Of a stretch of DNA of 64,000 bases, positions 6,042 to 55,357 are shown one piece after another. The translations under genes and the position numbers were made by a program. The notes under the pieces were generated by a model that saw only the letters and a program-made list of their open reading frames with translations, was not told where the DNA came from and made no database searches. Each line of letters begins with the position of its first letter. The first letter of the stretch is position 1. Origin of the DNA: Aquabacterium humicola (GTDB taxonomy: Bacteria; Pseudomonadota; Gammaproteobacteria; Burkholderiales; Burkholderiaceae_C); assembly GCF_030167915.1 (NCBI RefSeq), contig NZ_JARGNB010000006.1:1-64000 (forward strand), in the 5' to 3' direction.

Positions 6042-6501
6042 ACCGGCTCCCTTTGCTCGACAACCGTCTTCGGCCCGTTTCGGTCGTTTGCGCCGGGACC
6101 TTGCGTGCCGGCACCGAGCGGGCCAAGGCCACTGGGTGCCCGGCTCCGCTCATGTCCCCCGGGCCGTGCGCCGCTGATACGCCTCAGGCTCAATCTCGGC
6201 CGGCCCTCCTCCTTGACTTCGCTACGCCGGGCACCCAGCGCCCTTGGCTGAGGCGACACCGTGGCAGGCGACGGCCTGCCAGGGCGGTGCGGATCAGGAC
6301 GGTGGGGCGCTCTGTGGAGCGAAGTCAAGGAGGAGGGCCGGCCGGACCGCAGCCTGGACTCCTGAGCGGAGCCCGGCCCGGGGGACATGAGCGGAACAGA
6401 GCGCCCCACCGTCCTGATCTTGCGCGGTGCACGCATGGGGGCACGTGGCGACTATCCGCAACGGACCGACAGAGCGGCCGCTATCAAGTGAAGCTACCGA
6501 A
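6042..6501. repeat. Nested inverted-repeat block inside the sugar ABC operon
   Basis: A 460-bp non-coding stretch between permease and ATPase, built from several perfect inverted repeats: 6145-6165 with 6375-6395 (21 bp), 6198-6223 with 6318-6343 (26 bp), 6292-6314 with 6397-6419 (23 bp), and 6132-6144 with 6226-6238 (13 bp). The first two pairs nest within each other; the third interleaves with them, and the fourth overlaps the outer arm. Its 3' end (6456-6471) repeats a word found at 160-175. No open frame in it looks like a protein. It may be a composite mobile repeat, an operon-internal mRNA structure, or both. Confidence 0.8.
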
Positions 6502-7620
6502 ATGAACCGCGTCGAGCTGCGCCAGGTGCGCAAGGACTTCAATAACACCTCGGTGCTCGCGGGCATCGACCTCGGACTCGCGCCCGGCGAGTTCTGCGTC
6601 TTCATCGGGCCATCGGGCTGCGGCAAGTCGACCTTGCTGCGGCTGATCGCCGGGCTGGAGGACTTGTCGGGCGGCGAGATCCGCATCGATGACCGCGTGG
6701 TCAGCCACCTGCCGCCGGCCGAGCGCGACCTCGCGATGGTGTTCCAGAGTTATGCGCTGTATCCGCACATGAGCGTGCACGAGAACATGGCTTTCGGGCT
6801 GCGGCACCGCAAGCTGGGGAACGACGAGATCGAGCGCCGCGTGCGCGATGCCAGCCGCATCCTGAAGCTCGACGGGCTGCTGCAGCGCAGGCCGCGCGAG
6901 CTGTCGGGTGGGCAGCGGCAGCGCGTGGCGATCGGGCGGGCGATCGTGCGGCAGCCGAAGCTCTTCCTCTTCGACGAGCCGCTGTCGAACCTCGACGCGG
7001 CGCTGCGCGTCGCGACCCGGCTCGAGATTGCCAGGCTGCACCGCGAGCTCGGCTCGGCGAGCACCGTCTACGTCACCCACGACCAGGTCGAGGCGATGAC
7101 CCTGGCCGACCGCATCGTGCTGCTGCGCCCGGCGGCCGAGCGCGGCGATCAGCCCAGCATCGCGCAGGTCGGCTCGCCGCTGGAGCTGTACCACCGCCCG
7201 GCGAACCGCTTCGTCGCCGGTTTCATCGGCTCGCCGGCGATGAACTTCCTGCCGTCCGAAGTACGCGTCATCGAAGATGGTGCGCTGCACGCCTGCAGCG
7301 TCGGCGGCATCGGCTGGACCGCGCGCGTGCGCGGTGAGGGCATCGCGCCGGGCGCGGCCGTGACGCTGGGCATCCGGCCCGAGCACCTGCGGCTGGGCGA
7401 AGGCCCGGGGCGGGCGCGCGTCGTGCACGTCGAGCGCCTGGGTGAACATGCCTACGTCTACCTGCGGCCCGACGGCGGCGACGAGGCCGCGCCGCCGCTG
7501 CTGGCGAAGACGCCGCGCGAGGACGTGGCCGTCGGCGATGCGCTGGCCTATGCGCTGCCGCCGGAGGCGCTGCACTGCTTCGCCGCCGACGGGCGTGCGC
7601 TGCCGCGGCTGGCGGCCTGA
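6502..7620 (+). CDS. Sugar ABC transporter ATPase (MalK/UgpC family)
   Basis: A 372-residue cytoplasmic ATPase energising the upstream permeases. The Walker A motif GPSGCGKST lies near residue 37, the Q-loop in AMVFQSYALYPHM, the signature LSGGQRQRVA, Walker B LFLFDEPLSNLD, and the switch histidine in VYVTHDQVEAM. The C-terminal third is a TOBE-type regulatory domain (GIRPEHLRL). The ATG at 6502 is the first that gives the standard family N-terminus (MNRVELRQVRKDF); the open frame extends upstream only through the repeat block. It ends 4 bp before the GH65 gene, so ATPase and phosphorylase are co-transcribed. Confidence 0.93.
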   Translation: MNRVELRQVRKDFNNTSVLAGIDLGLAPGEFCVFIGPSGCGKSTLLRLIAGLEDLSGGEIRIDDRVVSHLPPAERDLAMVFQSYALYPHMSVHENMAFGLRHRKLGNDEIERRVRDASRILKLDGLLQRRPRELSGGQRQRVAIGRAIVRQPKLFLFDEPLSNLDAALRVATRLEIARLHRELGSASTVYVTHDQVEAMTLADRIVLLRPAAERGDQPSIAQVGSPLELYHRPANRFVAGFIGSPAMNFLPSEVRVIEDGALHACSVGGIGWTARVRGEGIAPGAAVTLGIRPEHLRLGEGPGRARVVHVERLGEHAYVYLRPDGGDEAAPPLLAKTPREDVAVGDALAYALPPEALHCFAADGRALPRLAA

Positions 7621-7624
7621 GACC

Positions 7625-9931
7625 ATGGGCCCCATCGATACCTGGACACTGCGGCGCGACAGCTTCGATCCCGCCACGCAGGCGCTGGACGCGACCCTCT
7701 TCGCGCTCGGCAACGGCTTCATCGGGCTGCGTGGTGTCGGCGACGAAGGGGCGCTCGGCGGCGCGCACGATGGCTGCTACCTCAACGGCTTCCACGACAC
7801 CGCCGACATCCACCATCCGGAGCACGCGTTCGGCCTCGCGCGCCGCAACGAGTTCATGCTCAGCGTGCCGAATGCGAAGCGGCTCGCGCTATGGATCGAT
7901 GGGGAGCGCATCGACCTTCGCCAGGGCGCGCTGCTCGGCTACGCGCAGGCGCTGGACTTTCGACGCGGGGTGCTCGAACGGCGCCTCGAGTGGCAGTCGC
8001 CGGGCGGCCGGCGCGTCTGCATCGAGAGCCGGCGCCTCGTCTGCCAGCAGCGGCGCACCCTGTGGGCCGCGCGCACCGAGATCGAGGTGCTGAATGGCGA
8101 CGCGGTGCTCACGCTGCAGCTCGGCATCGATGCGCGTGTCGGCAACCTCGCGGCGGGCGACGATCCGCGCGTCGGCAGCCACCTGAAGGAAGCGCCGCTG
8201 CTGCTGCAGTCGGCCGAACAGGATGCACACGGGTTGCATCTGCGGCAGCGCACGCGGCACAGCGGCCTCGCACTGCTGAGCAGCCTGGCCTGGACGCTGG
8301 ATGGTGACGAGGGCGCGGCGCTGCCCGCGCTCGATCCGGCGGACGGCCTTGCGCGCCGCTTCGAGCGCAGGCTTGCCGCGGGGCAGGCGCTGCGCCTGGA
8401 CCGCTTCGGCAGCTACCACACGAGCCAGGATGTCGCCGATGACGCGCTGCTGGCCACCGCGACCACCACGCTCGCGCAGGCGCGCCGCGATGGCTTCGAT
8501 GCCTTGTGCGACGAGCAGGCCGCGGTCCTCGAGCGCTATTGGAGCCAGGCCGACCTGCGGCTCGACGGCGATGACCGCCTGCAGCAGGCCCTGCGCTTCA
8601 ATGCCTGGCACCTGCTGCAGTCCGCCGGCCGCGACGGCCGCAGCAACATCGCCGCCAAGGGCCTGACCGGCGAGGGCTACGAAGGCCACACCTTCTGGGA
8701 CACCGAGGTGTACGTGCTGCCCTTCTTCGCCGCGACGCAGCCTGCCACTGCACGGGCCCTGCTCGAGTACCGCCACCGCCTGCTGCCCGCGGCGCGCGAA
8801 CGCGCCCGCGAGCTGGGCCACGCGCGCGGCGCGCGCTACCCCTGGCGCACGATCGCCGGCGGCGAGTGCTCGGCCTACTTCCTCGCCGGCACGGCGCAGG
8901 TGCACCTGAACGCCGACATCGCGCATGCGGTGCAGCTGTACTGGGATTCGAGCGGCGACGATGACTTCATGCTGCGCCACGGCGCCGAACTGGTGATCGA
9001 GACCGCGCGCATCTGGACCGAGCTCGGCCACCACGACGCGCGCCGCGGCGGCGCCTTCGTGATCCCCGGCGTCACCGGCCCCGACGAGTACACCGCGCTG
9101 GTCGACAACAACTGGTACACCAACCGCATGGCGCAGCGCCACCTGCGCTTCGCGCTGCGCGTGCGGGACTGGCTGGCCGCCGAGCACCCGTCGCGGCTGG
9201 CCGAGCTGACGCAGCAGCTGGTGCTCGATCCCGGCGAGCCGGCCGCGTGGCAGCGAGCCGCCGAATCGATGTGGCTGCCGCTCGACGCCACGCTGGGCGT
9301 GCACCCGCAGGACGACGGCTTCCTGCACAAGCCGCGCTGGACCCGTGCCGACACGCAGCACCCGCTGCTGCTGCACTACCACCCGCTGGAGATCTACCGC
9401 CACCAGGTCTGCAAGCAGGCCGACGTGGTGCTGGCGCTGCTGCTGGCCGGCGATGACATCGATGCCGGGACCAAGGCGCGCGACTTCGACCACTACGCCG
9501 CGGTGACGACGCACGACTCGTCGCTGTCGTACTGCATCTTCGGCGTCATCGCCGCCGAGATCGGCCGCCACGACCAGGCGCTCGACTACTTCGAGCGCAC
9601 CGCGCTGCTCGACCTGCACGACACCCACGGCAATACCGCGCACGGCGTGCACACCGCGGCGATGGCCGGCAGCTGGCTCGGCCTGGTGCAGGGCTTCGCG
9701 GGCCTGCGCTGGCCGGGGGGCCGCGCATCGTTCCGGCCGCAGCTGCCGGCGCGCTGGCAAGGTTATGCGTTCCGGCTGTGGCTGCGCGGCGCGCAGATCG
9801 AGGTCGCCGTCACGCCGGGCGACGTCACCTACCGCCTGCTGCACGGCGAGGCCGCGCGCTTCCTGCACCACGGCACGCCGCAGCGCCTGGACGCCGGGAC
9901 GCCGCTGCTGCACCTGCCGCTCCACCCCTGA
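7625..9931 (+). CDS. GH65 family alpha-glucosyl disaccharide phosphorylase
   Basis: A 768-residue cytoplasmic enzyme of glycoside hydrolase family 65. Members cleave maltose, trehalose, kojibiose or nigerose with inorganic phosphate, inverting the anomeric carbon to give beta-glucose 1-phosphate. The N-terminal beta-sandwich is followed by an (alpha/alpha)6 barrel with the family hallmarks KGLTGEGYEGHTFWDTE and VTGPDEY; the Glu of GPDEY (E488) matches the general acid position of characterised maltose phosphorylases. Length is normal for the family. The start at 7625 follows the ATPase stop by 4 bp. The beta-phosphoglucomutase gene comes 5 bp later, exactly what the product requires. Which disaccharide is used cannot be decided from the sequence by eye. 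Confidence 0.92.
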   Translation: MGPIDTWTLRRDSFDPATQALDATLFALGNGFIGLRGVGDEGALGGAHDGCYLNGFHDTADIHHPEHAFGLARRNEFMLSVPNAKRLALWIDGERIDLRQGALLGYAQALDFRRGVLERRLEWQSPGGRRVCIESRRLVCQQRRTLWAARTEIEVLNGDAVLTLQLGIDARVGNLAAGDDPRVGSHLKEAPLLLQSAEQDAHGLHLRQRTRHSGLALLSSLAWTLDGDEGAALPALDPADGLARRFERRLAAGQALRLDRFGSYHTSQDVADDALLATATTTLAQARRDGFDALCDEQAAVLERYWSQADLRLDGDDRLQQALRFNAWHLLQSAGRDGRSNIAAKGLTGEGYEGHTFWDTEVYVLPFFAATQPATARALLEYRHRLLPAARERARELGHARGARYPWRTIAGGECSAYFLAGTAQVHLNADIAHAVQLYWDSSGDDDFMLRHGAELVIETARIWTELGHHDARRGGAFVIPGVTGPDEYTALVDNNWYTNRMAQRHLRFALRVRDWLAAEHPSRLAELTQQLVLDPGEPAAWQRAAESMWLPLDATLGVHPQDDGFLHKPRWTRADTQHPLLLHYHPLEIYRHQVCKQADVVLALLLAGDDIDAGTKARDFDHYAAVTTHDSSLSYCIFGVIAAEIGRHDQALDYFERTALLDLHDTHGNTAHGVHTAAMAGSWLGLVQGFAGLRWPGGRASFRPQLPARWQGYAFRLWLRGAQIEVAVTPGDVTYRLLHGEAARFLHHGTPQRLDAGTPLLHLPLHP

Positions 9932-41996: not shown

Positions 41997-43823
41997 ATGC
42001 TGCTGCTGCACCCGCCGATCTCCCCGTGGCTCGTCCGCACCGACAGCGGCTGCCGCGTCACGCTGCTGACCGACCAGGCCGACCTGGCGGCCGTCTACCT
42101 GCGAGTGCTGCCGGACAACGAGGAGTACCTGTTCCCGATGCAGCCCGCCGGCCGGTCCGGTGCGCTGCATGCCTGGGTCGGCGAGATGCCGTGGGACGGC
42201 GGCAACCCGGCGACCCTCTACGCCTTCAAGGCGCTGGGCGGCGAGGGCCTCGGCGACGGCCAGTGCTGGCTGGCCGCCGACGGCACGCATGCGCACGTGC
42301 CGCCCGAGGCGGCGCATTTCCGCGCCGTGCGCGAGCTGCCGCCGGCCTGGGTGCGCGACCAGGTGTTCTACCAGGTGTTCCCCGATCGCTTCGCGCGTGG
42401 CGAAGAAACACGCAACCGCGACGGCGAGACCGTCTACGGCAGCCGCCCGGTGGCCGCGCAGCAGCTCGAGTGGGGCGCGCCGCTCGACCCCGACCACGCG
42501 CAGAACTCGTTCTACGGCGGCGACCTCGACGGCCTGCGCGCGAAGCTGGGCCACCTGCAGCAGGCGGTGGGCGCTACCGCGGTCTACCTGAACCCGGTGT
42601 TCACCTCGGGCAGCAACCACCGCTACGACACCGAGGACTACGACAACGTCGACCCCGCGCTCGGCGGCAATGCGGCGCTGGAGCGGCTGTCCGCGGCGAT
42701 GCATTCACGTGGCATGCGGCTGGTGCTCGACGCGGTGCTGAACCACACCAGCACCAACCACCCCTGGTTCAACCGCTGGGGGCAGCATGCCGAGGTGGGC
42801 GCGGACCAGTCGGCCGAGTCGCCGTGGCGCGCGTGGTACGCGTTCAACGACGCCGGCCATCCGATCTACTGGAAGGGCCACGATTCGCTGCCGGTGCTCG
42901 ACTTCTCGCACGCCGCGCTGCGCGAGGCGGTGTACGAGGGGCCGGATTCGATCGTGAAGAAGTGGCTGCGCGCGCCGTACTCGATCGACGGCTGGCGGCT
43001 GGACGTGATCCACATGCTGGGCGAAGGCCCGGGCGCGAAGAATAACGCGCACCATGTGCGGCAGATCCGCCAGGCGATCAAGGACGAGCAGCCGCAGGCC
43101 TACGTGCTGGGCGAGCACTTCAGCGAAGCGACGCGCTGGCTGCAGGGCGACCAGGAAGACGGCTCGATGAACTACTACGGCTTCGCGCAGCCGGTGTGGG
43201 CCTGGCTGGCGGGCCAGGACACCAACGGCCATCCGGCACGCCTGAGCACCGCGCAGTTCGAGGCCTGGCTGAACCGCGCGCGCAGCGCGATCGGCTACGA
43301 CACCGCGCTGGTGCAGTTCAACCTGCTCGGCAGCCACGACACGCCGCGCTTCATGACCCGCCTGGCCGGCAACCGCGCGCGCGCGAAGCTGGCGATGACC
43401 CTGCTCTTCGCCTACCCCGGCGTGCCCTGCATCTACTACGGCGACGAGCTCGGCATGGAAGGTGGCGCCGACCCCGACTGCCGCCGCTGCATGGACTGGA
43501 GCGGCGCGACCTGGGACCGCGACCTGCTGGCGCACGTCAAGCGCCTGTCGACCTTGCGCCGCGAGCGCCGCGAGTGGCGCGAGGGCGCGTTCCAGGTGCT
43601 CGCGCAGGGCGACGAGTGGCTGGCCTTCGCGCGCCATACCGGGCAGGCGGCGTCGATCTGCGTGGTCAATCGGGGCGAGGCGGTGGACGTGGTGCTTCCG
43701 CTGGCGGCGCTGCCGGTCGAGGTGGCCGTCTGGCGCGACGCCGATGGCGCTGCGGTGCATGCTGCCGACGGCGTGCTGCGCCTGTCGGTGCCCGCCGAGA
43801 GCGGCGTGGTGATGATGGGTTGA
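41997..43823 (+). CDS. malZ: Maltodextrin glucosidase (GH13)
   Basis: A 608-residue cytoplasmic enzyme, close to the 604 residues of E. coli MalZ. An N-terminal beta domain (about 1-115) precedes the (beta/alpha)8 barrel. Conserved regions are YGGDLDGL, DAVLNHTSTNHPWF, GWRLDVIHML with nucleophile D336, GEHFSEATRW with acid/base E373, and NLLGSHDTPRF. It releases glucose from maltodextrins. A GAGAAAGAGA ribosome site precedes the ATG. With the GH65 operon it gives the cell two routes for alpha-1,4-glucans. Confidence 0.93.
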   Translation: MLLLHPPISPWLVRTDSGCRVTLLTDQADLAAVYLRVLPDNEEYLFPMQPAGRSGALHAWVGEMPWDGGNPATLYAFKALGGEGLGDGQCWLAADGTHAHVPPEAAHFRAVRELPPAWVRDQVFYQVFPDRFARGEETRNRDGETVYGSRPVAAQQLEWGAPLDPDHAQNSFYGGDLDGLRAKLGHLQQAVGATAVYLNPVFTSGSNHRYDTEDYDNVDPALGGNAALERLSAAMHSRGMRLVLDAVLNHTSTNHPWFNRWGQHAEVGADQSAESPWRAWYAFNDAGHPIYWKGHDSLPVLDFSHAALREAVYEGPDSIVKKWLRAPYSIDGWRLDVIHMLGEGPGAKNNAHHVRQIRQAIKDEQPQAYVLGEHFSEATRWLQGDQEDGSMNYYGFAQPVWAWLAGQDTNGHPARLSTAQFEAWLNRARSAIGYDTALVQFNLLGSHDTPRFMTRLAGNRARAKLAMTLLFAYPGVPCIYYGDELGMEGGADPDCRRCMDWSGATWDRDLLAHVKRLSTLRRERREWREGAFQVLAQGDEWLAFARHTGQAASICVVNRGEAVDVVLPLAALPVEVAVWRDADGAAVHAADGVLRLSVPAESGVVMMG

Positions 43824-43845
43824 TGCTTGAAGGGAATCACCGCCT

Positions 43846-43861
43846 GTAGTAACGTTGCTAC
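43846..43861. promoter_or_regulatory. Palindromic operator candidate before the toxin-antitoxin operon
   Basis: GTAGTAACGTTGCTAC is a 16-bp near-perfect palindrome with one mismatched pair. It overlaps a possible -10 region (TAACGT, 17 bp after TTGAAG at 43827) and lies 23 bp before the antitoxin ATG. Antitoxins of the Phd type bind such palindromes to repress their own operon. Confidence 0.6.
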
Positions 43862-43884
43862 GTTCTCGGGCTCTGCAAACCCTC

Positions 43885-44142
43885 ATGGCCACGACCACGC
43901 TCTCCAGCCGCGACTTCAACCAGGACACCGGCCGGGCCAAGCAGGCGGCGCGCAAGGGGCCGGTGGTCATCACCGATCGCGGCCGGCCTTCTCACGTGCT
44001 GCTGACCTATGGTGACTACGAGAAGCTGCTCGGCCGCGGCACCAGCCTGCTCGACGCGATCGCCCAGCAAGAGGGCGGCGACTTTCACTTCGATCCGCCG
44101 CGTGTCGAAGGGCTGAGCAAACCCGCCGACCTCGACGCATGA
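43885..44142 (+). CDS. Phd/YefM-family antitoxin
   Basis: ATG 43885 gives 85 residues. The N-terminal DNA-binding domain has the family pattern LSSRDFNQDTGRAKQAARKG then GPVVITDRGRPSHVLLTYGDYEKLL. The C-terminal 30 residues are acidic and flexible and would wrap the toxin. It overlaps the toxin gene by ATGA. Confidence 0.88.
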   Translation: MATTTLSSRDFNQDTGRAKQAARKGPVVITDRGRPSHVLLTYGDYEKLLGRGTSLLDAIAQQEGGDFHFDPPRVEGLSKPADLDA

Positions 44143-44591
44143 TCCTGCTGGACACGAATGTGGTCAGCGAGCTGCGTCGCCCGGCGCGCGCGGACCGCCA
44201 CGTGCTGGCCTGGGCGCAGGCTGCTGCCGCGGCGCAGTTCCACCTGTCGGTCATCACGGTGCTGGAGCTGGAATTGGGCATCCTGCGTGTGCAGCGACGG
44301 GATGCAGCACAAGGTGAGGTTCTGCGCGCATGGCTGGATGGGCAGGTGCTGCCCCAGTTCGAAGGCCGCATCCTGCCGATCGACACCGCCGTGGCCCTGC
44401 GCTGCGCGCGCCTTCATGTGCCGGATCCCCGCGCCGAGCGCGACGCCTTGATCGCGGCGACGGCGCTGGTCCACGGCATGACGGTCGCCACCCGCAACCA
44501 GGCCGACTTCGCGCCCACCGGCGTACCCACGATCAACCCGTGGGCCGCGCCACCCGCGGCGCCGCGCAGGCCGGCACGGCGACGGTCCTGA
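44139..44591 (+). CDS. PIN-domain toxin (FitB/VapC family)
   Basis: A 150-residue ribonuclease-type toxin. The active-site acidic residues begin with D5 in MILLDTNVVSELRRP, then VLELELGI, and continue in PRAERDALIAATALVHG and ATRNQADF. The C-terminal basic tail (RRPARRRS) is an extension. The PIN active site cleaves RNA with Mg2+ or Mn2+. It is convergent with the Calx-beta gene, 3 bp from its stop codon. Confidence 0.9.
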   Translation: MILLDTNVVSELRRPARADRHVLAWAQAAAAAQFHLSVITVLELELGILRVQRRDAAQGEVLRAWLDGQVLPQFEGRILPIDTAVALRCARLHVPDPRAERDALIAATALVHGMTVATRNQADFAPTGVPTINPWAAPPAAPRRPARRRS

Positions 44592-44594
44592 CGC

Positions 44595-47500
44595 TCACCC
44601 CGGCACCGGGAACCACGCCGGATCGAGCGTCAGCGTCTGCCCGACGATGCCGGCGATCTCGACGGTGTTGAAGTCGATCGTCGTCACCAGCGCCAGCAGC
44701 GAGGCCTGGGTGAAGGTGCCGTCGTTGACGAGGCCGGTGTACAGCGCGAGCGCGTCGGACGGGATCGGCGACTCGATGATGGTGCTCCACAGGTACGCCA
44801 CCAGCACGTCGTTGGGCACCCCCGGCGCGTAGAAATTGATCATCGCCTGCGCCAGGTCCTCGAGGTTGCCGCCCTGGCGGTCCAGCATCGCGGTCCATTG
44901 GCTGAGCTGCGCGGAGCCGGGCGCCACGTTGAAGGCCGCGTTGAGCATCGCGTAGGCGAGGTAGGTGTTCTGGCCGGGCGAGGTGTCGCTGGCCAGCACC
45001 TGGTCGCTGAACTGCAGGCGCTCGACGTTGAACAGCGTGTCGCTGCCGTCGCCGCCGCCGGCGACCGTGCGCTGCGCGACCGAGCCGGTGATCGTGTAGT
45101 CCGCGCGTGCGCCGCCGAAGACCGCCGTGTCGATGCCGGCGCCGCCGTCGAAGCTGTTGTTGCCCGCGGTGCCGCGGAAGACGTTGTTCGACGCATTGCC
45201 GGTGCCGGTGGTGGCGCTGCCGGTCAGCACCAGGTTCTCGACGTTCTCCGGCAGCGTGAAGCTGGCGCTCGACACCACCGTGTCGATGCCGCCGCGCGGG
45301 CTCTCGGCGATGCGGTCCTGCGCGCTGCTGACGCTGTAGCGGTCGTTGCCGAGGCCGAAGCTGTAGGTCGCCGGGCCGTCGTTGTCGATCAGCGTGCCGG
45401 TGGCCTGCGCCTGCGGGATCGTCGCGTTGACCGGCGCGCTCAGCGACAAGGTCCAGGTCTCGGTGGCCTCGGCCGTCGTGTCGTCGATCAGCGGCGAGCT
45501 CACCAGCTTCGTCGTCTCGCCCGGTGCGAACACCAGCGTGCCGAACAGGCGCTGGAAGTCCGGCGCCGACGAGTTGTGGAACGCGGTGCCGTTGGCCATG
45601 TCGAAGTTGACCTTGACCTCGTTGCCCGACGGCGCCGACAGCTGCACCAGGAAGCCGGCCAGCACGTCGCCTTCGCCGACGCTGATCGGGCCGGCGCCGA
45701 TGCGCGGCTGGCTCACCGGCGCGGTGTCGCTGCGGCCGATCAGCACCGCGCCCACCGCGTCGGCGAGCGTGCCGCCGGCCGCGCCGCTGAGCTGCAGCCG
45801 CAGCGCCTCGTCGAACTCGGCCAGGCCGTCGTCGGTGATGTCGATGGTCAGGGTCTTCACCGTCTCGCCGGGCGCGAAGCTCAGCGTGCCGCTGGCGGCG
45901 CGGTAGTCGGTGGCGGCCGCGGCGGTGTCGTCCGCGGTGGTCCAGTTCACGGTGACGGTGCCCACCGAGGGCTTGTCCAGCCAGACCGGCAGCGTCGCGA
46001 TGCCGGCGCGCTCGTCGACCACCGCATCGCCGATGCGGATCGCCGGCGTGCCGGCCACCGCGTCGTTGTCGTAGAGCCGCGCCGGCGTCCAGCGCTGCGG
46101 CACGGTGGCGTTGACCGGCGAATTGAGGTCCAGCCAGAAGGACTCGACGCCCTCGACCAGCGTGTTGTCGATCAGCGGCACGGTGATCGTGCGCGTGGTT
46201 TCGCCGGGCGCGAAGACCAGAGTGCCGAAGTGGCGCTGGTAGTCGGGGGCCGACGAGTTGTAGAAGGCCAGCGCGTTGGCGAGGTCGACGTCGACCTCGA
46301 CCGGGTTGCTCGAGGGCGAGCTCAGCTGGATCACGAAGCTGAGCGCGGGCTGCGACTCGTCGCCGAAGGCCGGGTGCGCGATCACGTAGGGCATGCCGGC
46401 CGGCGCCGCGTCGCTGCGGCCGATCTGCGCGACGCCGCTGCCGTCGGCCAGCGTCGCGCCGGACGGCGCGCTCAGGGTCAGGTTGAAAAACTCGTCGACC
46501 TCGGTCGCCGCATCGTCGTACAGGTCGATGGTCACCGTCTTGGCGACCTCGCCGGGCGCGAAGCTCAAGCTGCCGCTCGCGGCGCGGAAGTCGCTGCCGG
46601 CCTGCGCGGTCTGGTCGGCGGTGGCGTAGTTCACCGTCACGGTGCCGGTCGACGGCCGGTTCATCCAGACGAAGAAGCTCGCGGTGCCGGCGCTTTCGTC
46701 GACCGTGACGTCGCCGACGGCGATCGCCGGCGTGCCGGCGATGCCGTCGTTGTCGACGATGATGCCCGGCGTGTAGCGCTGCGGCACCGTCGCGTTGACG
46801 GGCGTGTTGAGGTCCAGCCACCAGAGCTCGCGGCTCTCGGCCTGCGTGTCGTCGAGGATCGTCAGCGGCACGAAGCGGGTGGTCTCGCCGGGCGCGAAGA
46901 CCAGCGTGCCGAAGTGGCGCTGGTAGTCGGGCGCCGACGAGTTGTAGTACGCGGTCGCGTTCGCCAGGTCGAAGTTGACCTTGACCTCGTTGCCCGATGG
47001 CGCGCTCAGCTCGATCGTGAAGCCGGTCAGCGCCTGGCTTTCGTCGGCGACGATCGGCCGCGCGCTGATGTGGGGCGCCCCGACCGGCGGGCCGTCGTTG
47101 CGGCCGATCGTCGCGCTGCCGAAGGCATCGACGATCGTCGCGCCGGCCGGGCTCGACAGGTTGAGCCGGAACACCTCGTCGGCTTCGGTGTCCGCATCGT
47201 CGAAGAGGTCGACCGTCACCGCCTTCACCACCTCGCCGGCGGCGAAGGTCAAGGTGCCGGCGGCGGCGCGGTAGTCGCTGCCGGCCATCGCGGTGGCGTC
47301 GCCGGTGGCGTAGCCCACCGTCACCGTGCCCGTCGAGGGCCGGTTCAGCGAGACGAAGAAGCTCGCGCTGCCGCTGGTCTCGTCGACCACGGCATCGCTG
47401 ACCGAGACCAGCGGCGTGCCGGCGACGGCGTCGTTGTCGAACAGCAGCACCGGCGTGTACCGCTGCGGCACCGTCGCGTTGACCGGCGAGTTCAGGTCCA

Positions 47501-49130
47501 GCCACAGCGCCTCGGTGCCCTCGGCCTGCGTGTTGTCGACCAGCGCGAAGGCGACGATCCTGCTCGTCTCGCCGGGCGCGAAGACCAGCGTGCCGAAGTG
47601 GCGCTGGTAGTCCGGGACCGACGAGTTGTAGTAGGCCGTGGCGTTCGCCAGGTCGAAGTTGACCTCGACCTGGTTGCTGGACGGGGCCGACAGCGTGATC
47701 GCGAAGCGCAGCAGCGCCTGGCTTTCGTCGCCGGCGATCGGCATTGCGCTGATCGCCGGCTGGCTCACCGGCGCGGCGTCGTTGCGAACGATCAGGCCGC
47801 GGCCGCTGCCGTCGACGATGGTCGCGCCGGTCGGCGTCGCGAGGTCGAGCCGGAAGGCTTCGTCGGCCTCGGCATCGCCGTCGTTAGTGATGTCGACGAT
47901 CACTGTCTTCACCGTCTCCCCGGGCGCGAAGCTCAGCGTGCCGGTGGCCGCGCGGAAGTCGCTGCCCGCGGCGGCGGTGTCGCCGGCGGTCGTGTAGTTC
48001 ACCGTCACGACCCCGGTCGACGGCTTGTTCAGCGTGACGAAGAACTGCGCCGTGCCGTCGGTTTCGTCGACCATCGCGTCGCTCACCGCGAGCGCCGGCG
48101 TTCCGGCGGTGGCGTCGTTGTCGATCAGCAGCGCCGGCGTGTAGCGCTGCGGCACGATCGCGTTGACCGGCGTATTGAGGTCGAGCCAGAACTGCTCCGG
48201 CGTCTCGGCCGTGGTGTTGTCGACGATCGGCACCACCACCAGCTTCGTCGTCTCGCCGGGTGCGAAGACCAGCGTGCCGAAGTGGCGCTGGAAGTCCGGC
48301 GCCGACGAGTTGTAGAAGGCCAGCCCGTTGACGGTGTCGAAGTTGACCTTGACTTCGTTGCTCGACGGCGCCGACAACTGCACGACGAACTGGGTGAACG
48401 CGGCGCTCTCGTCGGCGGCGATCGGCCTGGCGGTGACGAAGGGCTGGCTGACCAGGTCCGCGTCGTTGCGGCCGATGAGCCCCAGGCCGCTGCCGTCGAC
48501 GATGGTCGCATTCGTCGCATTGCTCAGCTGCAGGCGGAAGTACTCGTCGACCTCGGCAGCGGGGTCGTTGAGCAGGTTCACCGTGACGGTCTTGACCGTC
48601 TCGCCCGCCGCGAAGCTCAGCGACCCCGAGGCCGCGGTGTAGTCGCTGCCGGCGGTCGCGGTGTCGTCTGCGGTCGTGTACTGCACGCTCACCGTGCCGG
48701 TCGAGGGGCGGTTCAGCGTGACGAAGAACTGCGCCGTGCCGGAGGCCTCGTCCACCACGCGGTCGCTCACCGCGATCTGCGGCGTGCCGCTGGTGCCGTC
48801 GTTGTCGACGATCAGCACCGGCCAGTAGCGCTGTTGAACGGTCGCGTTGACGGGCGTGTTGAGGTCCAGCCAGAACAGCTCCGACCCCTCGGCGGTGGTG
48901 TTGTTGACGATGTTCACCGTCAACGTCTTGCTGGTTTCGCCGGGCGCGAAGGTCAGCGTGCCGAAGTTGCGCTGGAAGTCCGGCGCCGCGGAGTTGTAGA
49001 AGGCCTGCCCGTTGACGGTGTCGTAGTTGACCTGGACCGGGTTGCTGGAGGCCTGGTCCATCACGATCGTCAGGGTGACGGTGGCGGCGCCTTCGTTGAT
49101 GGCGGACGGCAGGACGCGGAGGTAGGGCAT
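44595..49130 (-). CDS. Giant Calx-beta repeat protein with RTX-like and DUF4214 C-terminal domains
   Basis: A 1511-residue protein with no signal peptide. Residues 1 to about 1253 are 11 Calx-beta modules of two types in strict alternation, A-B-A-B-A-B-A-B-A-B-A. Type A carries FYNSSAPDFQRHFGTLVFAP and LDLNTPVNA; type B carries VDE-x-x-G-x-A-x-FFV and LNRPSTG. About 1254-1375 is a haemolysin/RTX-like calcium-binding segment (NVFRGTAGNNSFDGGAGIDT). About 1384-1500 is a DUF4214 domain. This suggests an adhesin exported by a type I system, which is not in the window. A strong AGGAG site lies 5 bp before the ATG. It is the last gene of the sigma/CHAT cluster. Confidence 0.9.
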   Translation of the reverse strand: MPYLRVLPSAINEGAATVTLTIVMDQASSNPVQVNYDTVNGQAFYNSAAPDFQRNFGTLTFAPGETSKTLTVNIVNNTTAEGSELFWLDLNTPVNATVQQRYWPVLIVDNDGTSGTPQIAVSDRVVDEASGTAQFFVTLNRPSTGTVSVQYTTADDTATAGSDYTAASGSLSFAAGETVKTVTVNLLNDPAAEVDEYFRLQLSNATNATIVDGSGLGLIGRNDADLVSQPFVTARPIAADESAAFTQFVVQLSAPSSNEVKVNFDTVNGLAFYNSSAPDFQRHFGTLVFAPGETTKLVVVPIVDNTTAETPEQFWLDLNTPVNAIVPQRYTPALLIDNDATAGTPALAVSDAMVDETDGTAQFFVTLNKPSTGVVTVNYTTAGDTAAAGSDFRAATGTLSFAPGETVKTVIVDITNDGDAEADEAFRLDLATPTGATIVDGSGRGLIVRNDAAPVSQPAISAMPIAGDESQALLRFAITLSAPSSNQVEVNFDLANATAYYNSSVPDYQRHFGTLVFAPGETSRIVAFALVDNTQAEGTEALWLDLNSPVNATVPQRYTPVLLFDNDAVAGTPLVSVSDAVVDETSGSASFFVSLNRPSTGTVTVGYATGDATAMAGSDYRAAAGTLTFAAGEVVKAVTVDLFDDADTEADEVFRLNLSSPAGATIVDAFGSATIGRNDGPPVGAPHISARPIVADESQALTGFTIELSAPSGNEVKVNFDLANATAYYNSSAPDYQRHFGTLVFAPGETTRFVPLTILDDTQAESRELWWLDLNTPVNATVPQRYTPGIIVDNDGIAGTPAIAVGDVTVDESAGTASFFVWMNRPSTGTVTVNYATADQTAQAGSDFRAASGSLSFAPGEVAKTVTIDLYDDAATEVDEFFNLTLSAPSGATLADGSGVAQIGRSDAAPAGMPYVIAHPAFGDESQPALSFVIQLSSPSSNPVEVDVDLANALAFYNSSAPDYQRHFGTLVFAPGETTRTITVPLIDNTLVEGVESFWLDLNSPVNATVPQRWTPARLYDNDAVAGTPAIRIGDAVVDERAGIATLPVWLDKPSVGTVTVNWTTADDTAAAATDYRAASGTLSFAPGETVKTLTIDITDDGLAEFDEALRLQLSGAAGGTLADAVGAVLIGRSDTAPVSQPRIGAGPISVGEGDVLAGFLVQLSAPSGNEVKVNFDMANGTAFHNSSAPDFQRLFGTLVFAPGETTKLVSSPLIDDTTAEATETWTLSLSAPVNATIPQAQATGTLIDNDGPATYSFGLGNDRYSVSSAQDRIAESPRGGIDTVVSSASFTLPENVENLVLTGSATTGTGNASNNVFRGTAGNNSFDGGAGIDTAVFGGARADYTITGSVAQRTVAGGGDGSDTLFNVERLQFSDQVLASDTSPGQNTYLAYAMLNAAFNVAPGSAQLSQWTAMLDRQGGNLEDLAQAMINFYAPGVPNDVLVAYLWSTIIESPIPSDALALYTGLVNDGTFTQASLLALVTTIDFNTVEIAGIVGQTLTLDPAWFPVPG
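45541..48975 (-). repeat. 684-bp tandem superrepeat (A+B Calx-beta pair)
   Basis: The word encoding QRHFG (or QRNFG, QRLFG) recurs at 48961, 48277, 47593, 46909, 46225 and 45541. All five intervals are exactly 684 bp, or 228 codons. No insertion or deletion has accumulated in five superrepeats, though residues differ between copies. Confidence 0.95.
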
Positions 49131-49203
49131 GGACGCTCCTCGAGGGCGATGGAAGGACGCGGCGAAAGGCTTCGACGACAGGGACGGCCCGTGCGGCTTG
49201 ACG

Positions 49204-52200
49204 TCAGGGCTGCAGGCGCTCCGGCCGGCTGACCATGAAGGCGGCCCAGAAGAACGGATGGCGCCAGGCGCGGTCGGCGCGCCGGCGCACCTGGACCTGC
49301 GCCTGCTGCAGCGCGCGCGCCGGGTCGGCATCGCTGCGCAGCGCGCGGTACAGCGCGGTCATCAGCGCGCCGGTGCTCTCGTCCTCGACGCGCCACAGGC
49401 TCGCGATCACCGCGCCGGCCCCGCGCCGGGCCAACAGCGCCGCCAGGCCGTCGACCTCGCGGCCGTCGGCGCCCTGCGCGCCGCCGAGGCCGGTCTCGCA
49501 GGCCGACAGCGTGATCAGTGCCTGGCCGCGCCAGTCGAACGCCGCGAAGCGCTCGAGCGACAGCTTCTGGGCATCGCCCGTCAGCAGCCAGCTGCGGCCG
49601 ATGTGGCCGGGGCGCAGCACGAAGTGCGTGCCCAGGTGCAGCAGCTCGCGGCGCGCCGGCGCCAGCTCGCGGGCGGCCGTGCCGCCATCGGCCACCGCAC
49701 GCAGGCGCTCGGTGGTGAAGGCCTCGTTGAGCCAGCCGGCGCCGGGCAGCAGCCCGCGCTCGCAGGGGCCGTCGGCGGCGTCGAGGCCGATCACCTCGCC
49801 GTCGACGATGCTGCACAGCTCGCGCGGCACCGCCTGCAGCGCCGGCAGGCCGGCGAGCGCGCGGCTGACGCCGAAGGCCCGCACGTAGGCCTCGCGCGGC
49901 GGCGGCTCGGCCAGCGGCGCATCCGCGCCGCCGTTGGCCGGCGCATCGCCGGCGGTTCGGTCGGCGGCGGCGATGCGCTGCTCGATCGCGTAGCGCTCGC
50001 CGAGGTAGCGCCGGCCGTCGTGCAGCGCGGCGAAGGGCAGGTAGCGCAGCGCGCCGTCCAGGTGCAGCACCAGCCGCTGCACGCGCGCCACATCGGCCGC
50101 CTGGGCGATCGGCGCCGCCACGCGCGCATGCAGCGACTGCGCCAGCGGCAGCACGTCCTCGCGGCGGCCGATCTGCGCCAGCAGCCGGCCGACGTCGCGC
50201 GCCAGCGCAGCCGGGTCCTGCGGCCGCCGCTGCAGCGTGCGGCCCCGCGGGCCGTCGAGCACGAGGTTCAGGTGGGTGTCGCCGGCGAAGAGCCAGGCCA
50301 CCAGCGTGCCGGCCGGTGCGCGCGTCGCCACCGGCGCGGTGGCGGCGCGCGGCGCGCGACCGTTGGCCGGTTCACTGCCCAGCAGCGCCTGCCACGATTG
50401 CAGGCGCTCGGCCTCGGCGGCCGCGCTGTCGCCTGCCGCGGCGGGCGAGGCCGCGCGCCAGCCTGCTTCGCGCGGCGTCAGCGCCGGCCCGCCGGGTGCC
50501 GGCGCGTCGCCCGCACCGCGCACGAAGTCGAGGAACTCCTCGGCCTTCAGCAGCCGCAGCACGTCCAGCGCCTCGTCGATGCGGCCGTCTTCGGCCAGCC
50601 AGTCGGCCAGGCGCCGGTACACCGCATGTTTGTCGGCGACGAACTGGCGCTCGCTGTCGCGCGCGGTGCGCGAGAAGTCGCGCCGCATCGCCTCGATCTG
50701 CTCGACCGCCGTCTTGCCGAAGTGGATCGCCAGCGCCCGCGCGCCGCTGCGCCGCAGGTGCTCGGCCAGCGCGTCGTAGGCGATCCACAGCGGGTGCGCG
50801 GTGCCAGCGCTCTGCGCGGCCGCCAGCGCGCGCAGGTGGTGCTCGCGGGCCTCGCCGGCGCGTCCCGCGGCATCGGCCTGCAGGGCCAGCGCGTGGTGCA
50901 CGCGGAAGCGGTGCAGCGGCACCGCGGTATCGAGCGTGGACGCGCGGCGCCGCAGCGTGTCGCAGGCCTCGCCCGCGAGCCGGCCGCGCACCTGGGCGAT
51001 GCAGCGGTGCACCGTCGACACCTCGACGAAGGCATGCTGCTCGCCGACCACCGCGGCGATCAGCGGCGCCGACCGTGCATGCAGCGCGTCGACCTCGGCC
51101 CAGCGGCCGCGGGCGGAGGCCAGCGTCGCCTGCAGCCGCAGCAGCCGGCCGTGCCAGTAGCCGAAGCTCGCGTCGCGCCCGGCCACGCCCAGGCCTTCGT
51201 CGATGACGCCCTGCGCCGCGTCGGCGTCGTTGAGCCGCGTATACAGCTCGGCCAGGTTGTCCAAGAGCCGCAGCCGGCGCAGCGCCGGCAGGCCGGGGTT
51301 CGCGCGCAGCAGCGCGCGCGCTTCCTCGAAACGCAGCTCGGCTTCGGCCAGGCGCGACAGGTGCATCAGGCAGGTCGCGCGGTTGTTCATCGCCACCAGG
51401 TGCATCGCCGGGTGCTTCGGGAAACGTTGCTGCGCGAAGGCGACGGCTTCTTCGGCGACGGCCAGCGCGTCGGCATAACGGCCGCGGTCCTGCTGCAGTG
51501 CCGACAGGTTGTTCAGCACGCCCAGCTGCGCGGCCGGCGACACCGCCGGATGCAGCGCCATCAGCCGCCGGCCCTCGTTGAGCGCGGTTTCGGCCTCGTC
51601 GCCGCGGTTCAGCTGCGACAGCATCGCGCCCAGGCTCGCGAGGGCGTCGAAGGCGTCGGGCGCGTCGGCGCCGTCGAGTTCGCGGATCAGCGCGACTTCG
51701 GCGCTGGCATGGCCGATCGCCGCGGGCAGGTCCTGGCGCGCGTAGGCATGCATCGTGCGCTGGTTCAGCAGGTCGCCCATGTCGCGGCTGCGCGCGAGGC
51801 CGGCGTCCTTCAGCTCGCGCTCGGCCTCGTCGAGCAGCGCTGCGGCGCGATCGAGGGCGTCGGGCGCCTCGCGCAGGGTGCGCAGCGCCTGCGACAGCCC
51901 GACCGCCGCCAGCGCGGGCAGGCGGCCGTGCTGGTCCAGCGCGCGCAGCTGCGCCAGCGCGCGCTCGAAATGCGGCGCGGCGCGGGCGTAGGCGCCCTGG
52001 TCGGATTCCAGCGTGCCCTGGGCCAGGGCGACCTCGGAGGCGGTCAGGCTGCCCGGCGCGGCCGACGCGGCCAGCGCACCGAGCAGCGCGGCCGCGGCGT
52101 CGTAACGTTCGTTGGCCGCCAGCGCCTGGGCCAGCTCGATGCCGGTGGCCGTCGACGCCGCGGCGCGGTGGCGGGCGCAGGCGCGGGCCAGCGCCAGCGG

Positions 52201-52341
52201 CGGCTGGTTGCGTCGCAACGCGTCGGCCTCGGCGGCGAGTGCGGCGGGGTCCGGCGGCGCGACGCCGTCGCACGGGGGCTGTGCCGCGGCCAGGCCGGCG
52301 AACGTGGCGAGCAGCAGCGCCGCGGCGCGCCGGAGGTTCAC
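49204..52341 (-). CDS. Secreted TPR-CHAT caspase-like protease
   Basis: A 1045-residue protein starting with GTG at 52341, which overlaps the stop of the anti-sigma-like gene (GTGA). Residues 1-22 form a signal peptide (AGLAAAQPP), so it acts outside the cytoplasm. About 60-560 is a long array of TPR-type helical repeats. The C-terminal CHAT domain (about 690-1045) has the catalytic pair: H906 in LLHLGTHF and C948 in LSACETGLGG, followed by ASLWRVEDESTGALM. All CHAT hallmarks are intact. CHAT proteins are separase/caspase-like cysteine peptidases. It is co-transcribed with an ECF sigma factor and a giant surface protein. The target is unknown; the anti-sigma-like protein or the Calx-beta protein are natural candidates. 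Confidence 0.92.
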   Translation of the reverse strand: MNLRRAAALLLATFAGLAAAQPPCDGVAPPDPAALAAEADALRRNQPPLALARACARHRAAASTATGIELAQALAANERYDAAAALLGALAASAAPGSLTASEVALAQGTLESDQGAYARAAPHFERALAQLRALDQHGRLPALAAVGLSQALRTLREAPDALDRAAALLDEAERELKDAGLARSRDMGDLLNQRTMHAYARQDLPAAIGHASAEVALIRELDGADAPDAFDALASLGAMLSQLNRGDEAETALNEGRRLMALHPAVSPAAQLGVLNNLSALQQDRGRYADALAVAEEAVAFAQQRFPKHPAMHLVAMNNRATCLMHLSRLAEAELRFEEARALLRANPGLPALRRLRLLDNLAELYTRLNDADAAQGVIDEGLGVAGRDASFGYWHGRLLRLQATLASARGRWAEVDALHARSAPLIAAVVGEQHAFVEVSTVHRCIAQVRGRLAGEACDTLRRRASTLDTAVPLHRFRVHHALALQADAAGRAGEAREHHLRALAAAQSAGTAHPLWIAYDALAEHLRRSGARALAIHFGKTAVEQIEAMRRDFSRTARDSERQFVADKHAVYRRLADWLAEDGRIDEALDVLRLLKAEEFLDFVRGAGDAPAPGGPALTPREAGWRAASPAAAGDSAAAEAERLQSWQALLGSEPANGRAPRAATAPVATRAPAGTLVAWLFAGDTHLNLVLDGPRGRTLQRRPQDPAALARDVGRLLAQIGRREDVLPLAQSLHARVAAPIAQAADVARVQRLVLHLDGALRYLPFAALHDGRRYLGERYAIEQRIAAADRTAGDAPANGGADAPLAEPPPREAYVRAFGVSRALAGLPALQAVPRELCSIVDGEVIGLDAADGPCERGLLPGAGWLNEAFTTERLRAVADGGTAARELAPARRELLHLGTHFVLRPGHIGRSWLLTGDAQKLSLERFAAFDWRGQALITLSACETGLGGAQGADGREVDGLAALLARRGAGAVIASLWRVEDESTGALMTALYRALRSDADPARALQQAQVQVRRRADRAWRHPFFWAAFMVSRPERLQP

Positions 52342-52958
52342 GGCGCCGCCTCGACCTCAATGCGCACACTGCCGTCCGCCCCGCGCACGATGCCGCGGCG
52401 CGCCAGCTGCACGCTCACTTCCGGTGATGGCGGCGACGTCCATTCCGCGTCCAGCCCGAAGCGGCCGAGGCGCTCGTAGCGCCGCACCGTCGCGCCCAGC
52501 GCCGCCAGCTCGGCGGCCAGCGCATCGCGGCGTTCGCGCGGCTTCGCATCGCGCAGCAGCTGCAGGCCGTCGGCCGTGCTGCCGCGCAGCACCGTCGGAT
52601 CGTCGGCCGGCGGCGTGACGGGGGGCCGCAGCAGCGGCAGCAGCACGGCGATGCCGAACGCGGCGGCCAGCGCCCAGGCCCACGGCCGCGGGTGGCCGGC
52701 GCTCATGAGCCGGCGCTGCCAGCGCTCCCAGCGCTCGGCGCAGGCGGGGCACCAGCGCCGGCGCAACAGGCCCGTGCGCTGCGCCGCCTGCAGCAGCGCG
52801 GCCTCGGCATCGGCGGCCGGCTCCGCCTGCGCCAGCGGGCGCCAGCGTCGCATCGCTTCGCGCAGCAGCGCCGCCTCCTGCAGCGTCGCCGGTGCGCTGC
52901 CCTCGCGCGGCCGGCCAGCCAGCGCGTCGAGCCAGTCGTCGTCGTCACGCGGGTTCAT
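52338..52958 (-). CDS. Single-pass anti-sigma-like membrane protein
   Basis: A 206-residue protein. The N-terminal acidic start (DDDDWLDALAGRP) and helical region (about 1-85) would be cytoplasmic; a CPAC pair lies at 70-73. One membrane segment spans about 93-110. The C-terminal 95 residues would be periplasmic, with a helix (ERRDALAAELAALGATVRR) and a strand-rich end. Its position 7 bp after an ECF sigma gene and its topology fit an anti-sigma factor, but no classical zinc-finger HxxxCxxC is present, so the role is inferred. Confidence 0.65.
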   Translation of the reverse strand: MNPRDDDDWLDALAGRPREGSAPATLQEAALLREAMRRWRPLAQAEPAADAEAALLQAAQRTGLLRRRWCPACAERWERWQRRLMSAGHPRPWAWALAAAFGIAVLLPLLRPPVTPPADDPTVLRGSTADGLQLLRDAKPRERRDALAAELAALGATVRRYERLGRFGLDAEWTSPPSPEVSVQLARRGIVRGADGSVRIEVEAAP

Positions 52959-53010
52959 GGGCCCCCTACGGCGCCACGCGCCGGTCCCCCCGAGGGGGAT
53001 CGAGTGTCTT
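52959..53010. repeat. GC-rich repeat copy at the end of the sigma gene
   Basis: GGTCCCCCCGAGGGGGATCG with flanking GGGCCCCCTACGG arms lies in the opposite orientation to the element at 15080-15142. It spans the sigma stop codon and encodes the last 14 or so residues of the sigma protein (KTLDPPRGDRRVAP), a sign of insertion or drift into the gene end. Confidence 0.5.
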
Positions 53011-53667
53011 CGGAACGGCCGGGCGGCGCTCGTCTGCCGATGCCGTCGTGTCGCTGCGCGTTTCGCCGGCACGCAGCCCGGCCTGCAGGTACCAGTCGTG
53101 GAAGTACACCCGCGCCTTCTTGCGGCACTGCGACAGGTACTCACGCGTCGCGCCCGGGCTGCGGCCGAGCAGCGTCGCGATCTCGGCCGGCGACAGCTCG
53201 TCCTCGGCGATCCAGCGCAGCACCTCGGCGGCGGCCGGATGGTCGCGGCGGAAGCGCTGGGCGCAGGCGCGGTACAGCGCCTCGAGCTCGGCATCGCGCC
53301 ACTGCTGCTCGGGCGTCGCGACCGGGGCGGCGCGCTGCAGCGCGGCCTCCACCTCGGCCAGCACGCGGCCCTGCGCATCGTCCAGCGGCGACTCGGGCCG
53401 GCGCCGGCGCAGTTCGTCGGCCGCGCGGTGGCGCAGCACCGTCTTCAGCCACGGGAACAGCTCCGACTCGCCGCGGTACTGCGCGCAGCGCTGCCAGGCG
53501 CGGATCAGGGTGTCCTGCACCAGGTCGCGTGCGGCCTGCAGCTCGCCGAGCGCGCACATCGCTTCGTGCAGCAGCGCGCGGCCGTAGTCGCGCTGCAGCA
53601 TGCGCAGCGCCTCGGCGATTCGGGGTCCGCCGTCGCTGCAGGCGCGCATGAAGTCGTGGCGGTCCAT
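52966..53667 (-). CDS. ECF-type RNA polymerase sigma factor
   Basis: A 233-residue sigma-70-family protein. Region 2 has ARDLVQDTLIRAWQRCAQYR and FPWLKTVLRHRAADELRRRR; region 4 has LSPAEIATLLGRSPGATREY and LSQCRKKARVYFHDW. ATG 53667 is chosen as it begins just before region 2 and sits near family size; in-frame ATGs at 53781 and 53844 would overrun the divergent promoter region. The C-terminal 35 residues are a non-conserved tail, partly encoded by a repeat. It heads the sigma/anti-sigma/CHAT/Calx-beta cluster and probably drives it. Confidence 0.85.
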   Translation of the reverse strand: MDRHDFMRACSDGGPRIAEALRMLQRDYGRALLHEAMCALGELQAARDLVQDTLIRAWQRCAQYRGESELFPWLKTVLRHRAADELRRRRPESPLDDAQGRVLAEVEAALQRAAPVATPEQQWRDAELEALYRACAQRFRRDHPAAAEVLRWIAEDELSPAEIATLLGRSPGATREYLSQCRKKARVYFHDWYLQAGLRAGETRSDTTASADERRPAVPKTLDPPRGDRRVAP

Positions 53668-53842
53668 CGTCCGGCCCAGGAGGCGGGGGCAGGAAAGTCC
53701 ACGATGCCACAGGCGGGCCCGGCGAAGGGAGGGGGAAACGCGCAGCCCGGCCGGCAGCGCGCAGGCAAGCAGTTCGGCCATCGTTCGGCAGGGACGGATC
53801 AGCCGCCGCAACGTCAGGCCGACGCGGTAGAGAATGCCGTGC

Positions 53843-55353
<1,511 letters not shown>

Positions 55354-55357
<4 letters not shown>

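Follow-up and report, generated by a model that had tools for sequence, protein, structure and literature searches.

Five described systems provide the background for a locus of Aquabacterium humicola that encodes an extracytoplasmic function (ECF) sigma factor, a putative transmembrane anti-sigma factor, an exported TPR-CHAT protein and a large Calx-beta repeat protein. The locus lies within 64,000 nucleotides of DNA (contig NZ_JARGNB010000006.1, positions 1 to 64,000), a stretch that is called the window throughout. In Craspase, a type III-E CRISPR system with the TPR-CHAT protease Csx29, Csx30 and CASP-sigma, a TPR-CHAT protease is likewise found with an ECF sigma factor and an inhibitor, and one report proposes that cleavage of the inhibitor frees the sigma factor (PMC10028731). 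DdvS and DdvA of Myxococcus xanthus (PDB: 8rw5, 8rot) are an ECF sigma factor and its anti-sigma factor; according to PMC4374960, DdvS is active once DdvA has been inactivated and the promoter PddvS needs DdvS. ECF54 sigma factor genes of the Actinobacteria have CHAT-domain neighbors, for which proteolytic control is proposed in a review (PMC8999054). In caspase/EACC2 neighborhoods, which are described around EACC2 and TRADD-N proteins, a caspase domain occurs together with an ECF sigma factor and a TPR protein (PMC8195603). Lastly, RseA/DegS combines a membrane anti-sigma factor, which has a periplasmic domain, with an envelope-side protease (PMC10028731).

The A. humicola locus differs from each of these systems. 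By its entry titles, DdvA is itself a transmembrane anti-sigma factor, and thus both functions seem to reside in one protein there and in two genes here; no polypeptide uniting the anti-sigma protein with a TPR-CHAT-like fold was found among the loci described below, the genes being separate in 13 of 13 CHAT loci. Craspase acts as part of an RNA-guided complex with Cas7-11, whereas the CHAT protein considered here carries a signal-peptide-like N-terminus and its presumed inhibitor partner lies in the membrane. Unlike the ECF54 arrangement, an anti-sigma-like gene adjoins the sigma gene. Neither a membrane anti-sigma factor nor a linked surface gene is mentioned in the excerpt on the caspase/EACC2 neighborhoods (PMC8195603), and the first protease of the RseA pathway is DegS rather than a caspase-like protein encoded with the sigma/anti-sigma pair. 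A description of the sigma, anti-sigma, caspase-fold and surface-gene set was not found in the literature searched; the Casas-Pastor ECF classification lay outside that search and may mention it.

The locus is best read as an envelope-to-gene switch in which a caspase-fold protein controls the anti-sigma factor. A probability of about 0.63 is given to this circuit as a whole. The features of the window are as follows.

52966-53667, minus strand: ECF sigma factor, 233 amino acids (aa) (TIGR02937 E = 5.7e-20; Sigma70_r2 E = 1.4e-10)
52338-52958, minus strand: putative transmembrane anti-sigma factor, 206 aa (position, topology, conservation)
52629-52685, minus strand: predicted single transmembrane helix of the anti-sigma protein, residues 92-110 (hydropathy and AlphaFold2 helix)
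52341-52598, minus strand: predicted periplasmic part of the anti-sigma protein, residues 121-206, with a conserved ERLGRxGxD region (model, alignment)
49204-52341, minus strand: exported TPR-CHAT protein, 1045 aa, with a GTG start overlapping the anti-sigma stop (CHAT E = 2.9e-49; Foldseek)
49624-49626, minus strand: codon of the presumed catalytic His906 of CHAT (His in 13 of 14 CHAT proteins)
49498-49500, minus strand: codon of the presumed catalytic Cys948 of CHAT (Cys in 13 of 14 CHAT proteins)
44595-49130, minus strand: partner, a Calx-beta repeat protein, 1511 aa (Calx-beta E = 1.1e-161; A. terrae homolog at the same place, L016)
53792-53818, minus strand: candidate ECF-type promoter motif upstream of the sigma gene, CCTGACGT-N14-CGTCC (pattern search)
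49182-49208, minus strand: candidate ECF-type promoter motif upstream of the Calx-beta gene, across the CHAT stop codon (pattern search)

The earlier note on this DNA listed four minus-strand genes joined by 7 bp, a 4-bp GTGA overlap and 73 bp, and these coordinates and junctions proved exact. Its description of one apparent operon agrees with the gene order and junctions, but the 73-bp CHAT/Calx-beta junction holds an ECF-type promoter motif of its own, and a single operon is therefore only part of the picture.

The first three genes are conserved together. When the sigma factor was searched against 200 genomes of the family (E ≤ 1e-25), six loci were found, all of which continued with an anti-sigma-like gene and a TPR-CHAT gene. 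A profile of the six anti-sigma members gave 16 matches in 399 family genomes, nine of them sigma/anti-sigma/TPR-CHAT loci. A tenth closer locus, L023, belongs to a Roseateles metagenome-assembled genome (MAG) and is among the only four strong loci that were used out of 80 listed, the other 76 being left out; the remaining three strong ones, L021, L022 and L024, were taken to be the same as G143, G182 and G111. The ten closer loci are the window, L016 (A. terrae), L119, L120, L017, L118, L018 (Paucibacter sp. PLA-PC-4), L023, L019 and L020 (Pelomonas sp. V22). Among them, the sigma/anti-sigma junction is -4 bp in eight, +7 bp in the window and -14 bp in L016, and the anti-sigma/CHAT junction is -4 bp in nine and +20 bp in L017. 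The distances of the three proteins correlate with an r of 0.85-0.88, as high a value appearing in 0 of 2000 permutations; shared descent alone could produce such a correlation.

Five more distant loci extend the association. Two of these, G703 and G018, were read from homology searches and frame lists and were added to the anti-sigma profile, which with 12 members matched 15 of the 399 genomes (E ≤ 1e-4); the new genomes were G633, G160 and G005, and G075 (E = 9e-5) was left out of the reading. In G703, the sigma and anti-sigma genes (L121 12815-14071, minus strand) are accompanied by a 1,372-aa TPR-CHAT protein that is encoded in a divergent operon (L161 7474-11592, plus strand). In G018, at least four C14 caspases that look exported (PF00656 E = 6e-40 to 2.9e-38) are encoded behind the pair (L122 10360-11709), and two of these caspases are fused to a TctC domain. 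G633 has the pair and two TPR-CHAT genes, with an anti-sigma/CHAT junction of -4 bp, G160 has a TPR-CHAT gene and a C14 caspase gene beside the pair on the opposite strand, and G005 has a C14 caspase gene ~3.7 kb from the pair, also on the opposite strand.

In all, 15 loci were read, from 14 of the 399 family genomes and the one MAG, and a caspase-fold gene stands within ~4 kb of the sigma/anti-sigma pair in every one (15 of 15). It is a CHAT gene in 13 loci and a C14 gene only in two (G018, G005), with both types present in L119, L120 and G160; the contiguous order sigma/anti-sigma/CHAT is seen in 11 of the 15. The conserved neighborhood that had been looked for is thus found as a sigma, anti-sigma and caspase-fold core, while the Calx-beta gene lies outside this core and C14 replaces CHAT in two genomes. 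This replacement suggests that the common element is the caspase fold and not the TPR. The weakest profile matches (G073, G177, G678, G707, G713) had no sigma, anti-sigma or CHAT homolog within ~1.5 kb by tblastn. Searches with the sigma factor at the class and phylum levels (369 and 349 genomes) returned its own genome only, with at most 7-8 candidates scored per genome and misses therefore possible, and a single-sequence anti-sigma scan of genome contigs led nowhere.

The run of C14 genes in G018 occupies L122 2989-10319. The encoded caspases have signal-peptide-like starts, the TctC domains (tripartite transporter receptor) are carboxy terminal, and more C14-like frames are present at 1024-2889 and at the end of the locus.

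The sigma gene and its neighbor have a promoter motif in common. In the four closer Aquabacterium loci, the regions upstream of both the sigma gene and the partner gene contain CCTGA(C/T)-N16-CGTC, a form typical of ECF promoters; in A. terrae the site of the partner is one base longer, and the L120 sigma site is 282 bp upstream. The motif was spotted by eye and tested afterwards, which makes its in-locus counts partly post hoc for the ten closer loci. The strict form TGACGT-N14-CGTCYC occurs twice in the window, exactly at the sigma and Calx-beta sites (shuffle mean 0.02), and TGAYGW-N14-CGTCYC has four sites in the entire window genome (G000), two of them at the window locus. Across ten genomes with the trio, CCTGACRW-N14-CGTCY has 16 sites (15 in nine genomes and one in the tenth) and 13 of the 16 are in the trio locus. 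The reversed pattern matched three times in the same ten genomes, and two genus mates without an anti-sigma match have 1 and 0 sites. Outside the loci, the site in G013:C8 is 96 bp ahead of a PEP-CTERM gene whose product is 49% identical to the Paucibacter partner, and the site in G183:C1 is followed by a small frame of secreted type and, after that, by a homolog of the Pelomonas partner (40% identity, E = 1e-107). The sole other match in the window genome (G000:C1:2119704; L152 5705-6719) is 106 bp ahead of a 302-aa lipoprotein-like gene.

A matrix made from six Aquabacterium sites was run on six loci of other genera (~40,000 positions). In five of the six, its best position falls ahead of the partner operon and on the correct strand, and in L019 the second best does so. 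A dyad test with the gap fixed post hoc was positive in 7 of 8 regions, compared with at most 5 in any of 200 shuffled sets, or in 6 of 6 when A. terrae was left out (best shuffled set, 4). G703 was not used in the definition of the motif; the looser CCTGAC-N16-CGTCT has four sites there, all within 7 kb at the locus, including a back-to-back pair in the interval that separates the sigma and CHAT operons. A second back-to-back pair (L161 13447-13540) stands ~2 kb past the CHAT gene, between divergent genes. The motif is common to 11 of the 15 loci. From these patterns there is a strong case that the sigma factor uses CCTGAC-N16-CGTC promoters, and it probably drives itself and the neighboring surface gene through them; expression of the surface gene is supported because one promoter motif precedes both genes. 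In L017, L118, L018 and L023 the partner stands before sigma on the same strand, and one promoter could therefore drive the partner, sigma, anti-sigma and CHAT genes. Separate promoters had been considered a reason to abandon the circuit. In form, the window does have them, but the Calx-beta site carries the sigma gene's own motif, which strengthens the circuit.

The product of the partner gene varies. The window protein has 11 Calx-beta stretches and, by eye, an RTX-like C-terminal part, and no signal peptide was seen. Only the window and A. terrae have a Calx-beta protein as partner, and the proposal that it forms part of the core was rejected because the partner differs between genera. L017, L118, L018, L023 and L019 have a large PEP-CTERM partner, above the Pfam cut-off in L017, L018 and L019 and by weaker NCBIfam matches in L118 and L023, and the L020 partner is a 604-aa lipoprotein-like protein. 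Four proteins are encoded by the partner operon of L119 and L120: one of secreted type (625/662 aa), one that resembles a lipoprotein, a C14 caspase (E = 1.6e-19 for L119) and a MORN protein. By eye, the partner gene has a regulator-like gene ahead of it in L017, L018, L023, L019 and L020; the regulator-like gene of L019 scores 20.8 bits with GerE, under the cut-off of 23.5.

Two side observations concern the partners. The C14 caspase and MORN operon stands after the CHAT gene in two Aquabacterium genomes (L119 6740-14530, L120 11026-19523), and the C-terminal part of the L119 MORN protein resembles the NCBIfam anti-phage ProA model (E = 1e-19, far under the cut-off). In addition, the inverted repeat TTGCCC-N4-GGGCAA, in exact or nearly exact form and with CGAC after it, stands shortly ahead of PEP-CTERM or similar surface genes (L018 15786, minus strand; L018 16851, plus strand; L023 7858, plus strand) and is possibly a box for the adjoining LuxR-like regulator.

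With respect to the proteins themselves, the window sigma factor matches the ECF model TIGR02937 at 71.6 bits (cut-off 42.9), with Sigma70_r4_2 under its cut-off (21.9 vs 25.7 bits); 10 homologs were aligned. In the 206-aa protein, a transmembrane segment is predicted to be followed by a periplasmic domain, as in class I anti-sigma factors, on the basis of hydropathy and of an AlphaFold2 model (mean predicted local distance difference test, pLDDT = 79.5). Hydropathy identifies one hydrophobic segment, residues 92-110, which the model presents as a helix. The equivalent segment exceeds a hydropathy threshold of 1.4 in 12 of the 15 members (8 of 10 closer, 4 of 5 distant) and is under it in L119, L017 and G160. 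Four N-terminal helices are modeled where a class I (ASD) domain would lie, with a poor middle stretch, and the C-terminal alpha/beta domain is confident (pLDDT = 91-98 per ten-residue block from residue 131; 67 in block 121-130).

The TPR-CHAT protein presents CHAT and TPR_12 (E = 1.8e-15) domains, the CHAT domain lying behind the TPR repeats as in TPR-CHAT proteases. The His/Cys dyad noted earlier is present in LHLGTHF (H906) and LSACET (C948), and both motifs are kept in 13 of the 14 CHAT proteins that adjoin this anti-sigma family, including short ones of 507 and 627 aa. The amino terminus is signal-peptide-like when judged by eye, as had been claimed, and so are those of all 14 CHAT proteins. 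A Foldseek search with the model (mean pLDDT = 78.5) placed Csx29 first (8eey_B, E = 3.3e-11) and DdvA second (E = 4.2e-11), and separase was also matched. The DdvA structure aligns over 1,039 columns including gaps, and the protein matches the solved DdvA entries by fold. The likeness to Csx29 is at the fold level only, the Csx29 model NF041237 scoring 12.4 bits against a cut-off of 300. A comparison with Craspase had been drawn from the sequence, and Csx29 is indeed the best fold match, but a DdvA-type transmembrane anti-sigma factor is equally close by fold. Against PDB sequences the protein matched only TPR, PPR and similar repeat proteins, and the CHAT domain by itself led nowhere. The window genome (7.39 Mb) has only five CHAT genes. 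The other four are L012-L015 (G000:C41:399580, C40:400413, C42:324742, C42:116798), and no homolog of the window sigma factor was called beside them, although the gene caller can miss genes.

The proposed circuit may be considered in terms of four steps. The ECF sigma factor would be held by the membrane protein of the adjoining gene. An exported caspase-fold protein, here TPR-CHAT, would face the periplasmic domain of the anti-sigma protein and control it, as suggested by constant linkage, location and the DdvA fold match. The TPR superhelix may read an envelope or cell-surface signal, and CHAT would most likely make the first cut in the periplasmic domain, with house-keeping proteases completing the release. 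Freed sigma factor would then bind CCTGAC-N16-CGTC promoters, a handful per genome, and raise its own operon and the neighboring surface or secreted protein, here Calx-beta. Control by cleavage is the weakest step and would be the simplest use of the kept His/Cys dyad; C14 in place of CHAT also points to it, with L017 as a case of the protein kept without the dyad. Compared with the circuit first put forward, the conserved set and the route from sigma to a surface gene are supported, and Calx-beta as a fixed output is too narrow.

Several observations weigh against this circuit. The anti-sigma label rests on position, topology and conservation because the protein reaches no family cut-off, and neither sequence searches of the PDB nor Foldseek (E ≤ 0.001) gave a match. 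The DdvA fold match (8rw5) has modest TM-scores of 0.40/0.46. In L017 (G013), the CHAT gene (6225-9122) has a clean in-frame loss of ~140 aa that includes both catalytic residues, while sigma, anti-sigma and promoter sites are all still present and CHAT is intact in L118 of the same genus; proteolysis is therefore dispensable in L017 or the system is decaying. The promoter evidence is also uneven. Reversed TGAYGW-N14-CGTCYC has 0 matches in G000 but 2, 1 and 4 in G143, G662 and G593, and reversed CCTGAC-N16-CGTCT has 3 in G703 compared to 4 real sites. The matrix scores were matched by 22 of 40 shuffled maxima in L017, 11 of 40 in L118 and 28 of 40 in L019, leaving position alone as telling. 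A sigma-upstream site was not seen in L019 and L020, no motif was found near the sigma/anti-sigma pair in G018, G005 and G160 (the one match in G005 is non-conforming and distant from its pair), and the single site of G633, just past its second CHAT gene, is doubtful.

The alternative that survives best, while still unlikely, is a sensor that needs no cut: TPR-CHAT would bind the periplasmic domain of the anti-sigma protein and act as a co-regulator that senses a ligand or stress, in the manner of a split DdvA. The fold match to DdvA suits this idea, as does L017, which keeps the TPR and CHAT flanks without the catalytic core, but a sensor of this kind does not account for a dyad that is kept in 13 of 14 proteins, the short ones included, or for a C14 caspase as the neighbor in two genomes. 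Less probable again, and by some distance, is that the protease is an effector: sigma would control both the protease and the surface protein, and the protease would process surface or other envelope proteins. TPR-CHAT proteases do activate effectors such as gasdermin, as described in PMC9729208. The motif precedes the CHAT-holding operon in G703, and sigma may therefore drive CHAT. Against an effector role, the partner changes completely between genera as sigma, anti-sigma and the caspase-fold protein stay together, and the Calx-beta protein has no Sec signal peptide, such that type I secretion, if used, would bypass the periplasm; one TIGR03375-type exporter is above cut-off in the window genome (G000:C12:910827). 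That the four genes are chance neighbors without a shared circuit would suit the rarity of the set (14 of 399 genomes read as positive) but is highly improbable given 15 loci with the same association and a motif common to 11, and for the core genes conservation has refuted it already.

Within the preferred envelope-to-gene switch, a narrower proposal is tentative and falls somewhat short of even odds: that the system is a CRISPR-free periplasmic counterpart of Craspase, in which an exported CHAT or C14 protease senses a surface signal and cuts membrane anti-sigma factors of a dedicated family, the regulon consists of hardly more than the sigma factor and one exchangeable surface gene, and protease and output are swapped around a sigma/anti-sigma core that is kept. 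Rfam at gathering scores found nothing within the window, and no dedicated search for a CRISPR array or gRAMP/Cas7-11 was made. PADLOC, applied to the window sigma/anti-sigma/CHAT trio, led nowhere. A simple scan of 43800-54200 found neither terminator-like nor sigma-70-like sites (shuffle means 3.0 and 0.3).

Two neighbors complete the description of the window. A divergent sigma-54-type activator gene (53843-55357) was rejected as part of the system, A. terrae being the sole one of the nine other closer loci with a homolog there. By eye, the frames at 43885-44142 and 44139-44591 (both plus strand) resemble a Phd/VapB antitoxin and VapC toxin pair that ends beside the Calx-beta stop codon, and both genes are kept in the corresponding position of A. 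terrae (L016 17713-18419, 87-88% identity).

If the proposed switch is correct, the coupling of a caspase-fold protease to a sigma inhibitor, known from Craspase, would also exist as an envelope system free of an RNA guide, one whose promoter is defined and whose regulon is very small. The system may be a parallel to, or a source of, the CRISPR version. A regulator would be linked to large surface proteins of the Calx-beta and PEP-CTERM kinds, whose role is unknown, and one sigma factor, one inhibitor, one protease and two promoters would offer a testable set for learning what exported caspase-like proteins sense.

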